Source: Planctomycetota bacterium (GTDB lineage: Bacteria > Planctomycetota > Phycisphaerae > Sedimentisphaerales > Anaerobacaceae). Taken from it: a stretch of DNA of 64,000 bases. The notes under the pieces are model-generated. The model was not told the origin of the DNA and ran no database searches. It saw nothing but the letters and a program-made list of their open reading frames with translations. A program made the translations under genes and the position numbers. This document shows positions 56,276-64,000 of this stretch, piece after piece. The stretch covers positions 1 through 64,000 of the forward strand of contig JAUWIG010000002.1 in NCBI GenBank assembly GCA_030605475.1, read 5' to 3'. Position 1 is the first letter of the stretch. The number at the start of each line of letters is the position of its first letter.

Positions 56276-56483
56276 GGCGGCAACTGACCTTCTTCAGCTC
56301 AAACCTAAACTGAGATTCATCAAAGCCGTTATACTCACACAAATTCAACCCATTCGTGTGTTGTCCAATAATCGAGAAGCGATTCGCTGTTCCACCTACG
56401 GGGTTGATGCCTAATGGGTCTTGTGTGAGCCATCGGCCGGTGTAGTAGTCGTAGTATCTATTTCTATTATATTGGATTTGCAA
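56253..56483 (-). pseudogene. RHS repeat-associated core fragment
   Basis: On the minus strand QYNRNRYYDYYTGRWLTQDPLG followed by INPVGG and GLNLCEYNGFDESQF is the hallmark of the RHS/YD-repeat core. It is 76 residues or slightly more and lacks the YD repeats and the toxin tip. It overlaps the speB 3' end by 23 bases on the other strand. It is the remnant of a large surface or toxin protein. Confidence 0.7.
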
Positions 56484-56540: not shown

Positions 56541-56705
56541 CTAGTTAAGTTGATAATTGAGTTCTGCTCTTACAATCAGAAAAAATAAAAGAGTAATAAC
56601 CCCCAACACTAAGGATACAATTATCCCTTCTACTGCAAGTCGTTTCCCCTTCAGCAAATCGCTGCTACTCTTTATCCAGGCTAACGCCCCAACGCCTAAT
56701 GCTAG
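56541..56705 (-). pseudogene. C-terminal fragment of a DUF4190-like membrane protein
   Basis: On the minus strand LALGVGALAWIKSSSDLLKG then LAVEGIIVSLVLGVITLLLF resembles the paired glycine-rich helices of DUF4190 proteins. It ends VRAELNYQLN and a stop. The frame is cut off at its N-terminal side exactly where the AAAACTAG array begins, with a stop 5 codons into the array. Probably the array insertion or expansion destroyed the gene. Confidence 0.6.
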
Positions 56706-56986
56706 AAAACTAGAAAACTAGAGAAAACTAGGAGAAAACTAGGAAAACTAGGGACAGGAAAACTAGGGGAAAACTAGGGACAGTCACCTATTTTCTTAAC
56801 TTATCGGCAAAACTAGGGACGGCAAGAGAAAACTAGGAGAAAACTAGAGAAAACTAGGGACAGCCACCTATTTTCTTAACTTATCCACTCTACCCAAAGG
56901 AAAACTAGGGAAAACTAGGGAAAACTAGAAAACTAGAAAACTAGGGACAGTCACCTATTTTCTTAACTTATCCACTCTACCCAAAA
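56703..56986 (+). repeat. Nested AAAACTAG / CACCTATTTTCTTAACTTATC array
   Basis: Sixteen copies of AAAACTAG spaced 7-14 bases apart in clusters are interrupted three times by CACCTATTTTCTTAACTTATC (56785-56805, 56865-56885, 56952-56972). The last two copies share CCACTCTACCCAAA. Preceding linkers are GGGACAG or GGGACGG. Spacers are neither equal nor unique, so this is not CRISPR. Confidence 0.9.
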
Positions 56987-57423: not shown

Positions 57424-57570
57424 TTGACTTCAAAACGCACTTGTTCATTTTTGTGCAAAAAAGCGCACTTTTTCGCATTTTTTTGCACTTTCTTGCATTT
57501 TCTTGCAATTTTTCTCACTTTTTTCAGCCCAACTTGCGCATTTGATTGAAATTTTCCATACGAAGTGAAG
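57424..57570 (-). repeat. tRNA-3' A-tract element, copy 1
   Basis: On the minus strand TTTCAATCAAATGCGC is followed by about eight units of the type GTGCAAGAAA or TGCGAAAAA, with a 10-base period, and then GCGCTTTTTTGC. It lies 3' of tRNA-Val in that gene's orientation. The same order occurs at 58619-58765. Confidence 0.75.
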
Positions 57571-57693
57571 GCCGCAAGGGTCACACAAAGGCTTACTGAT
57601 AACGCTGGTAGTGGGGACAAGTTAAACAAGACTGACGCCAAAGTGACGCCTAAGGCGGTTTCAGGCCGGATTGGGGTGTCAAGTAATGACTGA
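57550..57693 (+). pseudogene. Possible integrase-like C-terminal tail
   Basis: An open frame reads YEVKAARVTQRLTDNAGSG, then DKLNKTDAKVTPKAVSG and RIGVSSND stop. Its position beside a tRNA gene and its composition recall C-terminal tails of tyrosine recombinases. There is no catalytic domain, so this is a weak suggestion. Confidence 0.2.
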
Positions 57694-57731
57694 GCGAATG
57701 GCAAATGCTTTAGACGCAGCAGGTTACAGGA

Positions 57732-57806
57732 CTGGGCGATACAGGACTTGAACCTGTGACCTCCTGCGTGTAAAGCAGGCGCTCTTGCCATCTGAGCTAA
57801 TCGCCC
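57732..57806 (-). tRNA. tRNA-Val (anticodon TAC)
   Basis: The minus strand gives a full cloverleaf: acceptor GGGCGAT pairing with ATCGCCC, D-arm with GCTC/GAGC, anticodon stem CCTGC/GCAGG around TTTACAC, and T-arm ACAGG-TTCAAGT-CCTGT. The anticodon is TAC, reading GUA. The discriminator is A; CCA is not encoded. Confidence 0.95.
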
Positions 57807-57927
57807 TCGATTCGATTGTAAAAATACAGGTTTTTGACCCTTGCGTCAATACTTTTGATATTTTATATTAGCAAGTCGGGCTTTTGCTCACCCGGCCAAA
57901 ACGGCAGCAGAAATTTGAGGTGTTCTT

Positions 57928-58440
57928 ATGACAATACTTGAACCCATTCGCAGGCGATATTCCTGCCGGGCGTATCAGGACAGGCCCGTCGAGCAGGAGA
58001 AACTTGACCAAATCTTTGAGGCGGCTCGTCTGGCACCCTCGGCCAAAAATATGCAGGATTGGCGTTTTGTGGCTGTAACGGATAAAGAAAAAAAGCGTCA
58101 GCTTGCCAAAGCTGCCAATAACCAAATGTTTCTGGAAAAAGCTGGGGTAATTATAGCTGCCTGCAGTAATAGCGACGATGTAATGCGGTGCGGGCAGGCT
58201 ATTGGGCCTATCGACGTCGCTATCGCACTCGAACATATCTCTTTGCAGGCAACGCAGTTACAATTGGCGACGTGCTGGATTGGGTCGTTCTATCCGGAAA
58301 AAGTCAGACCAATACTGGGTATTCCAGACGATATAGCTATAATAGAACTGATGGCACTGGGGTATCCAGCTGACAAGCCGAAAGAAGCAAAGCGCGAGCC
58401 GTTAAAAAATATCCTGTGCTATGAAAAGTGGCAGTTTTAG
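57928..58440 (+). CDS. Nitroreductase-family protein
   Basis: This codes for 170 residues. RRRYSCRAYQDRPVEQEKL and ARLAPSAKNMQDWRFVAV at the N-terminus bind FMN, and IALEHISLQATQLQLATCWIGSF with MALGYPADKP near the C-terminus are also typical. Members reduce nitro compounds, quinones or other electrophiles, or act in dehalogenation. It stands alone between two tRNA genes, 121 bases after the divergent tRNA-Val. The substrate cannot be predicted. Confidence 0.9.
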   Translation: MTILEPIRRRYSCRAYQDRPVEQEKLDQIFEAARLAPSAKNMQDWRFVAVTDKEKKRQLAKAANNQMFLEKAGVIIAACSNSDDVMRCGQAIGPIDVAIALEHISLQATQLQLATCWIGSFYPEKVRPILGIPDDIAIIELMALGYPADKPKEAKREPLKNILCYEKWQF

Positions 58441-58527
58441 ACTGTTGTAAGTTTTTGGTCTGGCTTGAGTTAAATACGTTTTGGATTCTGGAAGCTATTC
58501 TATAAAATGGTGTTCAAAGGTGGTTTT

Positions 58528-58598
58528 GGGGACGTAGTGTAACGGGAGCACGCCGCGGTCGCATCGCGGAAATGAGGGTTCGATTCCCTTCGTCTCCA
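58528..58598 (+). tRNA. tRNA with anticodon CGC, probably tRNA-Ala
   Basis: The cloverleaf is acceptor GGGGACG/CGTCTCC with a G3-U70 pair (the alanine identity element), D-arm GTGT/GCAC, anticodon stem CCGCG/CGCGG around GTCGCAT, T-arm GAGGG-TTCGATT-CCCTT and discriminator A. The anticodon is CGC, reading GCG. G at position 32 and a Gln/Glu-like D-arm are unusual, so it may be an extra, atypical tRNA. Confidence 0.8.
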
Positions 58599-58618
58599 TT
58601 GCATTTCATTGGGGGAAG

Positions 58619-58765
58619 TTTCAATCAAATGCGCCAAAAAGTGCAAAAAATTGCAAAAAAGTGATTAAAAATTGCAAGAAAATGCAAGAAAGTGCAAAAA
58701 AGTGCAAGAAAGTGCTAAAAAGTGCTAAAAAGTGCGAAAAAATGAGCTTTTTTGCGCGCTTTTAG
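58619..58765 (+). repeat. tRNA-3' A-tract element, copy 2
   Basis: TTTCAATCAAATGCGCC is followed by 11-12 units of about 10 bases (GTGCAAAAAA, GTGCAAGAAA, GTGCTAAAAA) and then GAGCTTTTTTGCGCGC. It lies 21 bases 3' of the tRNA-Ala. Phased A-tracts of this period predict curved DNA. Confidence 0.75.
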
Positions 58766-60220: not shown

Positions 60221-63200
60221 TTACTTGCACTTTTCACACAGGTTGTCGTAGTACTTTAGAATTCGGTCAAAGGCACTGGATGGGCCGAACATTGTTTCAC
60301 TTTCCTGTCGAGCGCCGGTAAAGGTGGAAAGAATATATTCAACATCGTCTCGCTGGATTCCGTATAAGAGGAAATAAGCCGCATCGAGTTGGGCCTGAAG
60401 GTCGAGGCGTTCTGCCGGATTCCATTTATGCACCGATGGGTCAAAGTTTGCGGCTTCGGCCAACGGTCGCATGTCGTTGCTTGTGCAGGTAAGCTTTAGG
60501 ACGCGGTCGGAAATCCACCTTTCCAAAGTCTGCCGACTATCCCAAGGACAACGGTCAGAGTAAAAGGCCGGGGGGAACATTGGGAATTGTTCGATCAGGA
60601 AAAAATTTAGATTGATGTGAGCAATTTTCTGCCTTGCTATATAGTCGAGAACAAAAGCGTTTAGATTAGCCAGTAAACAGGATTGAAGCGTTGGTGCGAA
60701 AGCCTTTTTAAACAGAATGAGTGGAGCCGAGTTTATTATACCCACTTTTGGAATGAAACATGCTAAGACGGTTCTAGAGTCTGTTGCGCGAGTTATATTT
60801 CTGAAAGCAATTAACGCTTGGATATTTGGGAGGTCAAGTTTTTTGGATATTTCGGACTGATCCGCCCACCAACGGGGTTCAACGCAAAATTCGGGGTTCT
60901 GATGTTCGACAAGGGTGGTTTCTGTTGTTTGACCCTGAATCATCCAATTTTCTGGTTTTATGTAAACGCTGGCAAACCGATGGTCATAAGGCCGAAACAT
61001 CTTTGCTTCGTAAAGGGGCAAGAGGGTTTTCTTGTCTTTTTTCCAGCGAGGGCCATCACGTTTGAATTTTGCGGCTTTGAGCTGGTCAGCGACTTGGAAA
61101 AGCTCAGCATCGTTGGTTTGGTCGAACATTCGGAAGAATTTTATACCCCAGGGATTGCCGCCTTCTTCGCGGTTCCTGTCAACCAACACCGGGATGCGGC
61201 GGTAAATAGTTTTGGTCAGTTCGGCATCTCGGCTAGAGCGGAAAATTGGACAGGTCCGCGTGTTGGGGTTGAGGAGTTTGAAGTCATCGGTTGAAAGTAA
61301 GATGTGGCGATTTTTGTCTTTTAATTCTTCCATCCTGTGGGCAAAAAAGACGAAGTCGATTGAATCCGACTTGACTTGTGAGCCTCCGAAGAGCAAGACA
61401 CAAAACTTGTAGGAGTGATGAACATCAGGGAAAATTGGGGCCATATTCTCAAAATCATACAGCCCGATAAGTGACTTTGAGTCTGTCAATTTGCTGAAGA
61501 AGTTTCTAGTGGTGTATTCAGTGGCGATACCGGAGGGCACAAGCAGGCCAACTCTGCCTTTGGTGGCAACGATGCTATGAGCAAGTTCGGCAAAGACGGC
61601 ATAGGTATTGATGTCGCCCTTGCCAGTTAGTGGGAACTGACCGGAATGACGAACATGGTCTAAGGCATTTTCGGCTTTAGTTTTGGCATTGATATAACGT
61701 TGATAAAGTTCAGGGTCAGTTCTTTCGAGTTTGGCAATAAGTTTTCGCCGTGTTGCTGCATTAGTAGCTGAGGCAATTTCTGGCGCAACAGCATCAAAGA
61801 ATTCTCGTTCCTGCAGTTTCATTCTTTCCCAGGGTGGGTTACCGATGACACAATCAAAGCCACCATTTTCGCGGGAAAAGATTTCGTTAAAAGCAGTTTG
61901 CCAGTTCATTGCACGCGGGTCTACCTCTGCGTTGGTTACGAGGCTATTGCCACAGATGATATTTTTCGACAGGTCAGCAAGAGTTTTGCCTTTTTGGGCG
62001 GAGCGCAGCCATAGGGCAAGTTGCGTTATTTCAACTGCTTCGGGTGATAAGTCTACGCCGAAAAGGTTATCGTGGAGAATGAAGTCTGGAATTTGTTCTC
62101 TGAGTTGTTCGGCTTGTTTGTCGTTGTGGAAGGCAAGCGTATCGACAGCGTCAAGATACTTTTCTTCGAGGACATTATAAGCGCGGATGAGAAACGCTCC
62201 GCTGCCGCAGGCGGGGTCGATAATTTTGATTTGGCGAAGTGCTTCGATGCAATCGGAACAGTATTTGATGATTTTAGGGTCGTGGTCGGAGGCCGGAATA
62301 TTTTCGGGGTCGATATCGTATTGTTTGGCAACATCCCTGATTTTTTCCTTGGCTATTTTGGCAACGGTTTTATTTGTGATGAAGTCGGTGAATTCTCTGG
62401 GCGTATAGTAGATACCACCGCGTTTGCGCTCGGCTGATTTGGCCATCTTTGGCCTAACTTGATCCTCGATTGCTGTTTCAAATAAACCGCCGAGACGAAT
62501 TCTCTCGATGTCGTTAATAGACTTTTCAAACAGGTGGCCCAAAACGTCGACATTGACCTCATAACGAAAGTCGTAGTCGCCAATACTTTTGAAGAAGTTG
62601 GTCCACTCATCGTCGAGATTTAGTTCGTCAACTTCTTTGTCCATGCGGAATAGGCCACCATCGAAGGGTGAGATGTCGCGCTGTTCGTTGCCTTCGTCGA
62701 TGCTTCGAAAAAGGTCAAGAAAGTTTTGCCATCGAGGGTTTGTGACTCGGTGAAAAGGAGGAATATTCTCCCAAGCCTTTTTTAATGATTTGTCAGGCAG
62801 TAAACCACGATCTTCACAAAAAGCGATAAAAATAATGCGGTCAAGTAGTTTCTGCGCGATTTTAATAGCGTTATTCAAGGGTTTGTTTTGCGCTTCGCCA
62901 GATAGATACTGAATTAGTCTGAGACGATTGTTGTCATAATCTTTGTATAATTCATCTCCAACTTGGCGCTGACGGTTGTTAGTGTCATCGAGGAGGCGGT
63001 CTGCGCGGGGGCGTTGGCCTATGGTAATCGGAAGAAAGCCTTGGCGTTCAAAGAGATAATAAAACTGTTGAAATATACGCTTTTTTTTCAGGTCCTGTAG
63101 AGTGAAAAGCTCATAGACTCTTGGGGTGTGATTTCGGTGGTAAAGGCGGAAACTGACAAAGTTACAGACGATGCCCCAAGGACATTCTGGAATCGCATCA

Positions 63201-63670
63201 AGGTAATCCCAACATTGCTGTACAGGGGTGCGGCCATTAAACCGGTCTCGGTCAACATTTACTGTGGGACCTTTGAGTTCAATTACGGTGCGAGGGGGAT
63301 GCTTACGGCCTTCTTCGAACAAGCCAATAGCGGCATCGGCTTCCCCGCCATCAACGAAGAACTTGGCTTCAAGTTCCCAGCGCTCTTCATTTTCGCGAAA
63401 GAGTTTGTATCCAAGCGCTTCACCAAAAACCTCTGTCAGGAATTCTCCTTCAAGGGTAGTTTCTTTTTTCTTTTCGAGCTTTCCGCTGGATTCTAGGTCG
63501 GCCCACTTGCAAATGATTTCGTATGCTCGGTCTTGGGCCTTGCCTTTGAGGAGATTGGTGCGTGACCCTTGTTCCAGGTATTTGGGTAAGAACAGTGGGC
63601 GATGGCGACGGTTTTCGCCGTACCGAGCGGTATCGAGTTTAGGAAACAAGCTTCCTTCTTTCGCAGTCAT
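60221..63670 (-). CDS. Single-chain restriction-methylation enzyme (type IIG/Eco57I-like)
   Basis: This codes for 1149 residues from ATG 63670 (AAAGG upstream; TTG 63691 is less likely). An N-terminal PD-(D/E)XK nuclease pattern is seen at D112 in EADAAIG and E131-L-K133 in TVIELKG. The methyltransferase has KRGGIYYTPREFTDFI, motif I DPACGSGAFLI at 485-495, FGVDLSPEAVEITQLALWL, and motif IV NPPW at 611-614, which suits adenine methylation. A target-recognition region fills the C-terminal 400 residues. No separate specificity or endonuclease gene lies beside it. Confidence 0.9.
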   Translation of the reverse strand: MTAKEGSLFPKLDTARYGENRRHRPLFLPKYLEQGSRTNLLKGKAQDRAYEIICKWADLESSGKLEKKKETTLEGEFLTEVFGEALGYKLFRENEERWELEAKFFVDGGEADAAIGLFEEGRKHPPRTVIELKGPTVNVDRDRFNGRTPVQQCWDYLDAIPECPWGIVCNFVSFRLYHRNHTPRVYELFTLQDLKKKRIFQQFYYLFERQGFLPITIGQRPRADRLLDDTNNRQRQVGDELYKDYDNNRLRLIQYLSGEAQNKPLNNAIKIAQKLLDRIIFIAFCEDRGLLPDKSLKKAWENIPPFHRVTNPRWQNFLDLFRSIDEGNEQRDISPFDGGLFRMDKEVDELNLDDEWTNFFKSIGDYDFRYEVNVDVLGHLFEKSINDIERIRLGGLFETAIEDQVRPKMAKSAERKRGGIYYTPREFTDFITNKTVAKIAKEKIRDVAKQYDIDPENIPASDHDPKIIKYCSDCIEALRQIKIIDPACGSGAFLIRAYNVLEEKYLDAVDTLAFHNDKQAEQLREQIPDFILHDNLFGVDLSPEAVEITQLALWLRSAQKGKTLADLSKNIICGNSLVTNAEVDPRAMNWQTAFNEIFSRENGGFDCVIGNPPWERMKLQEREFFDAVAPEIASATNAATRRKLIAKLERTDPELYQRYINAKTKAENALDHVRHSGQFPLTGKGDINTYAVFAELAHSIVATKGRVGLLVPSGIATEYTTRNFFSKLTDSKSLIGLYDFENMAPIFPDVHHSYKFCVLLFGGSQVKSDSIDFVFFAHRMEELKDKNRHILLSTDDFKLLNPNTRTCPIFRSSRDAELTKTIYRRIPVLVDRNREEGGNPWGIKFFRMFDQTNDAELFQVADQLKAAKFKRDGPRWKKDKKTLLPLYEAKMFRPYDHRFASVYIKPENWMIQGQTTETTLVEHQNPEFCVEPRWWADQSEISKKLDLPNIQALIAFRNITRATDSRTVLACFIPKVGIINSAPLILFKKAFAPTLQSCLLANLNAFVLDYIARQKIAHINLNFFLIEQFPMFPPAFYSDRCPWDSRQTLERWISDRVLKLTCTSNDMRPLAEAANFDPSVHKWNPAERLDLQAQLDAAYFLLYGIQRDDVEYILSTFTGARQESETMFGPSSAFDRILKYYDNLCEKCK

Positions 63671-64000
63671 TGTTTGCCTTTCACTAACCAAAAGCTTAAC
63701 ACTCGGCAGTTTAGACGAGATACTTCTATTTTATATGAAAGTTGGTAGGAAGCAATTAAAAAAGAGGTTCCTTGGGTGCGGTCCCTGCTTCGCTGAAGCT
63801 ACGCAGGGCGGTGCGCTTCCCCCTTCGCTAAGGCTACGGAGCGACAAGCCGCTCGGGGTGACCCGGCTTCGCGTTAGCTACGCCGTGGCAAGCCCTTTCG
63901 TATTGCGTATTGCGGGGAAACGTCGTCGTCCACCTTTGCCATTCTGCTTCGCTTAAAGCTTCGCAGAATCCGGCTGCGGCGGATAAATGCCGGCCCCTAA
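63671..64000. repeat. Palindrome-rich gap at the right edge
   Basis: Several CTTCGCTNAAGCTACG-like motifs occur: CTGCTTCGCTGAAGCTACGC near 63786, CCTTCGCTAAGGCTACGGAG near 63821, GGCTTCGCGTTAGCTACGCC near 63864 and CTGCTTCGCTTAAAGCTTCG near 63944. CGTATTGCGTATTGCGG near 63899 is another repeat family. No gene was found. Confidence 0.6.

Follow-up and report, generated by a model that had tools for sequence, protein, structure and literature searches.

The 64,000-nucleotide stretch of DNA analyzed here (the window) carries two copies of a repeat whose core, though it differs in sequence from genus to genus, has a strong predicted bend in each genus where it occurs. We consider it somewhat probable that these repeats form a family of MITE-like, non-autonomous mobile elements with a conserved intrinsic bend that helps to pair their ends.

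The two copies lie on opposite strands and share an exact TTTCAATCAAATGCGC box (Table 1). As originally noted, they are homologous: both present TTTCAATCAAATGCGC, a 10-bp array and a GCTTTTTTGC hairpin module in the same order and in inverted orientation, they differ in size by whole 10-bp units, and they have the same unit order with the same single 11-bp step. The array of copy 2 scored 126 in Tandem Repeats Finder, with a period of 10 and 10.5 copies. Leftward of its right module, copy 1 continues into other intergenic repeats, and AGTTCAT heptamers follow the right module of copy 2. From tRNA gene to L box, the distance is 19 bp for tRNA-Ala and 181 bp for tRNA-Val.

Table 1. Features of the two window copies and their tRNA neighbors
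Feature	Position	Strand	Remarks
L end box (M box), copy 1: TTTCAATCAAATGCGC	57536-57551	-	AAGTTGGGC next on minus strand
Bent core, copy 1: 10-bp phased A-tract array	57464-57525	-	Unit about GTGCAAGAAA, minus strand
Right module, copy 1: inverted repeat GTGCGCTTTTTTGCAC	about 57453-57468	-	R box lost
L end box (M box), copy 2: TTTCAATCAAATGCGC	58619-58634	+	
Bent core, copy 2: 10-bp phased A-tract array, one conserved 11-bp step	58636-58744	+	
Right module, copy 2: terminator-like inverted repeat around GCTTTTTTGC	58732-58757	+	R box lost
tRNA-Val (TAC)	57733-57806	-	Neighbor of copy 1, coincidental
tRNA-Ala (CGC)	58527-58599	+	Neighbor of copy 2, coincidental

Other repeats occur close by. 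At 56702-56947, GGGACAGTCACCTATTTTCTTAACTTATCC modules adjoin another array of 10-bp period, (GGAAAACTAG)n, which contains A4 runs; it belongs to a different family, lies 500 bp from copy 1 and has a predicted bend of 90 degrees, a value attained by 6 of 200 shuffles. At about 56300-56480 on the minus strand, we read by eye the remnant of an RHS/YD-repeat C-terminus beside an arginase-family gene.

Gene content and repeats suggest that the source genome is that of a planctomycete. A BLAST search of this genome (2.40 Mb, 58 contigs) with copy 2 returned 33 matches at E ≤ 0.001, and at least 28 BLAST-defined copies are clear; a 22-base two-unit pattern matched the genome 143 times, versus 0 for the reversed control, which is well outside what chance would give. 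The elements are non-coding, intergenic and dispersed, are about 130-160 bp long, and have as their end box TTTCAATCAAATGCGCAAG (the M box, TCAATCAAATGCGCA). Their polarity is fixed: an L box ending in ...AAGTTGGGG is followed by the A-rich strand and then by the R box, CCCCCCTGCGC.... The head of these copies is TTTCAATCAAATGCGCAAGTTGGGGTG, with a minority carrying another head (GGGTTTGGGTAAAATAGGCAAGAG...). Spacings within them were 10 bp in 196 cases and 11 bp in 33, with 8 others. As the unit order is constant and the single 11-bp step is always GTGAGTAAAAATTGC, the copies of this genome descend from one element, without independent expansion.

In two copies of this genome (L044 and L045), the right end still carries a box in inverted orientation, ...CCCCCCTGCGCAAATGATCGAT, while the R box is absent from 26 of the 28, both window copies included; in these remaining copies, the hairpin module leads into other intergenic repeats. 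The right end of L044 matches that of an element from another genus (L048 of genome G022), so the form with both boxes is the ancestral full-length form. Copies without an R box, those in the window among them, are probably no longer complete.

The right side of the elements in this genome faces mosaics of other repeats. Defence-type genes were seen on the right side of four elements, at 60221-63691 in the window and at C27 (L145), C45 (L148) and C57 (L150), comprising two type IIG restriction enzymes, an OLD-like ATPase and a two-gene candidate system; the 20 genes on the left side included no clear defence gene and one match to a ZorB/OmpA-type domain. This right-side tendency, noticed after the fact, is weak. 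The M box itself is sometimes interrupted: palindromic inserts (ACCATTAGAGACTCTTCTCTAACGG... and ...CCGAAGCCTTGGCGAAGGCGG...) lie within it at L025 and L028 of this genome and at L111-L113 of G014, as though other insertions were directed at the box. At three further loci of the window's genome (L001, L005 and L026), one upstream module (GGGAATGAAACGACATC...) is connected at the M box to different downstream modules, which suggests recombination there.

The M box is not confined to this genome. Relative to a reversed-pattern control, the pattern TCAATCAAANGCGCAGG was enriched in many other members of this bacterial family as well as in the window's genome, with ratios of 63:1 in G013, 47:2 in G001, 32:0 in G014, 22:1 in G021, 17:0 in G022 and 15:2 in the genome of the window. 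Full elements, bounded on each side by an M box, were read in G014, G021, G022 and G013 (L192), in addition to the two described above. Across five genera of the family, the elements have boxes at one or both ends around different core sequences: the units are GTGCAAGAAA-like in the window's genome and TTGTAAGTTT in G014, and G021 has GC-rich blocks with T runs. Core alignments gave z-scores of 0.8-3.3 between genera versus 4-13 within genera. Because copies within one genome are not independent, we count the comparative support as five genera. In G014 and G021, homology continues for 35-60 bp outside the M box, which makes the outer ends of the element uncertain.

M boxes also occur in other arrangements. 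What we call type II elements, common to four genera (L009, L013, L016 and L017 in the window's genome, and G001, G021 and G022), have a conserved, unbent AT-rich core without an array, flanked by M boxes that are in direct orientation and about 110-120 bp apart. In G001, two composites of about 650 bp (L099 and L100) have inverted M-box pairs at both ends and contain small MQNKPNF-type repeat ORFs. The idea that bent (type I) and type II elements are two ends of one composite was discarded: such composites were seen in G001 as inverted M-box pairs (L099, L100) and are absent from the window's genome. Genomes G050 and G013 (L065, L056 and L051) carry another element with a 10-bp A-tract array, with the ends CCCGAATTGTTTAGTCTTG ... 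TTTTTCTATGGTTCAACAATGTCCTGAATG and a predicted bend of 126-141 degrees. The array pattern had no match in viral contigs. Its one match in genome contigs, in a Bacteroidetes single-cell genome, was attributed to chance, being AT-rich and having no boxes in the stretch read.

To predict curvature, we used a dinucleotide wedge model, and a simple A-tract junction model as a second check. Over 111-135 bp, box-bearing elements in genera that had been picked by sequence rather than by bend were predicted to bend by 110-172 degrees; per 120 bp, this comes to about 100-170 degrees, while shuffles bent by 42±22 degrees and 0-1 of 200 attained the value of the box-bearing elements. Every one of the 28 BLAST-defined copies of the window's genome had a predicted bend of 95 degrees or more, with a median of 144, compared to 1 of 98 control pieces taken 450-700 bp away in the same loci. 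Neither of these comparisons is circular. The window copies filled the top three of 1065 120-bp windows ranked for phased A-tract bending, with the core of copy 2 the strongest; the original prediction that the 10-base A-tract period makes for bent DNA was in this respect borne out. The A-tract junction model concurred for the copies of this genome, for G022 and for most copies of G021, and was significant in only some copies of G014.

Counting all distinct M boxes, the interior side had a bend of at least 95 degrees at 20 of 35 in the window's genome, 13 of 28 in G014, 13 of 23 in G021, 4 of 16 in G022 and 9 of 16 in G013, whereas the exterior side had one at 0, 1, 0, 1 and 4 boxes, respectively. 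Boxes without an interior bend were mostly single or of type II (direct boxes about 112 bp apart, no array), and the type II elements tested had predicted bends of 7-14 degrees; in G001, the M boxes were all unbent. In the bent elements of all five genera, the A/T-run spectrum had its peak at 10.25-11 bp, and the peak was absent in unbent, array-less M-box elements; this analysis needs no bending model, but it groups elements by predicted bend and is therefore partly circular.

The conserved features are two inverted boxes and, between them, a predicted bend of about half a circle. They are most simply read as a mobile, non-autonomous element that needs its ends brought together and has the required bend in its own DNA. 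A recombinase or transposase would bind the M boxes and spread the elements in trans. The in-phase array would bend the DNA into roughly a half circle and hold the two inverted M boxes close, which would help the protein to pair the element ends. In other elements, it is IHF or HU that gives this help. The boxes, the phasing and the predicted bend were read from the sequence or computed; the mobility, the end pairing and the acting protein are what we infer here. The elements resemble MITEs in being short, non-coding, multicopy and intergenic, and the inverted M boxes of G014, G021, G022, G013 and, in the window's genome, L044 and L045 correspond to terminal inverted repeats. Inspection by eye of the full-length copies L044, L045, L048 and L192, where the outer boundary is uncertain, revealed no target-site duplication. 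Among the loci read, none had a transposase gene with M boxes at its flanks; the dedicated search was for the Y1 family. An origin from IS200-like (Y1) or RAYT-REP elements was rejected, as M boxes at the flanks of Y1 genes were not above shuffle level, and the window's genome has only one Y1 transposase gene. We hold more tentatively a broader proposition, that in this family, whether mobile or chromosome-organizing, DNA shape itself is the conserved functional part, the two end boxes being kept and the bent core being replaced in each genus by sequence that is unrelated yet equally phased.

The main rival, which we regard as possible but not likely, is an architectural or regulatory bent-DNA site: a chromosomal protein would occupy the M boxes, and the bend would organize the nucleoid or tune nearby promoters. 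Such a role would fit a bend that outlasts changes of core sequence, and the window's genome yielded a single gene of the HU/IHF type. A-tract bends carried by elements can activate promoters, and the in-phase A-tracts of IS5 upstream of glpFK provide a precedent for promoter tuning (PMC2753651). The surroundings of the elements, however, point away from it. Bent elements of different genera had no orthologous flanking genes in common, as expected for elements that moved, and in five genomes the genes facing their boxes did so by the 3' end in 27 cases and by the 5' end in 18 (p = 0.23). Thus there is neither a conserved gene neighborhood between genera nor an orientation preference, copies sit beside gene 5' and 3' ends alike, and the right box has been lost from many of them.

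It is improbable that the repeat is a neutral minisatellite, in which A-rich 10-mers expanded by slippage within an old repeat and left the bend as a by-product. While the size differences of whole 10-bp units would suit this explanation, the 10.25-11 bp period is found in five genera despite their differing cores, phase-breaking indels are few despite the A5-A7 runs (8 of 237 spacings fall outside 10 or 11 bp), and the 11-bp step is conserved.

We consider it very unlikely that the copies are transcription terminators or end regions 3' of tRNA and other genes. Both window tRNAs read toward a copy, and the right module at 58732-58757 is a terminator-like hairpin; yet 18 of the 45 neighboring genes face the element by their 5' end, the T run of copy 1 is on the wrong strand for tRNA-Val, and a hairpin leaves the array unexplained. 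The suggestion that the copies mark a tRNA-linked transcription end region therefore found no support in gene orientation. In the six loci compared with Rfam, no family matched the elements, and in the window region only the tRNAs reached the gathering score.

Only 2 of 41 tRNA genes, both in the window, adjoin a copy; a search at the other tRNA genes revealed no copies there and frequent copies elsewhere, contrary to the tRNA association originally proposed. ARAGORN found no tRNA gene in the 1.5-kb flanks of the other copies fetched. With copies restricted to intergenic DNA, assumed to make up 15% of the genome, about one would be expected beside a tRNA gene; were placement uniform across the genome, two would be mildly surprising (P = 0.011). 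The two cases form one 1.3-kb locus and hence are not independent. Nor did the attL/attR-like repeats that had been suggested appear: the 3' ends of tRNA-Val and tRNA-Ala had no second copy in the window, and the tRNA-Ala end, with up to 2 mismatches allowed, had no further copy anywhere in the genome. An attL/attR pair is therefore absent. The proposal that the copies are the end of a tRNA-targeting integrative element, to which the two inverted copies flanking one tRNA/nitroreductase/tRNA block and one G001 M-box pair just 3' of a tRNA-Arg gene might lend themselves, is accordingly hardly credible, with 2 of 41 tRNAs and 2 of about 30 copies involved and no duplicated tRNA end. We took the G001 pair to be a chance occurrence, and the tRNA neighborhood of the window copies is a coincidence.

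Small repeats are usually recognized by sequence similarity. Here, the core outruns alignment between genera, while phasing and predicted bend persist between recognizable boxes. If real, the family would offer a case in nature where selection on DNA shape can be tested apart from sequence, and repeat searches that use sequence only would split or miss families of this kind.

We found no description of the family in the open-access literature. The Correia/NEMIS elements (CREE) of Neisseria are about 105-157 bp long and intergenic, with inverted terminal boxes and over 100 copies, and their 155-bp form has an internal IHF bending site (PMC2229807, PMC2649163). The present elements resemble them in size, inverted terminal boxes, intergenic position and an internal bending site, but differ in the boxes, in a bend that is intrinsic to a phased array rather than due to an IHF site, and in that no target-site duplication was seen. 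The 24-26 bp terminal repeat of Correia elements is absent from the present family; the end box here is TCAATCAAATGCGCA, from which the Neisseria repeat differs. REP elements and BIMEs with their RAYT transposases are likewise dispersed intergenic mosaics with palindromic parts, but palindromes flanking a RAYT gene were not encountered here, in a genome with a single Y1 gene.

In the BrickBuilt MITE of Porphyromonas gingivalis, a tandem array lies between a leader and a tail, always in intergenic regions and in about 19 copies (PMC4596501). The two share an array between end modules, small inverted-repeat ends and an intergenic location. The BrickBuilt unit is 23 nt long and conserved within one species, and its abstract describes no helical phasing or bend (PMC4596501); the unit here, in contrast, is about 10 bp, varies between genera and keeps phase. 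Finally, the 3' end of IS5 has up to 10 in-phase A-tracts and a large permanent bend (PMC2753651), a likeness in that an in-phase A-tract bend is carried by a mobile element (putatively so in our case), but IS5 is an autonomous insertion sequence with a transposase, whereas the present family consists of stand-alone non-coding repeats. Correia/NEMIS, BrickBuilt and the IS5 bend thus each share part of the design.
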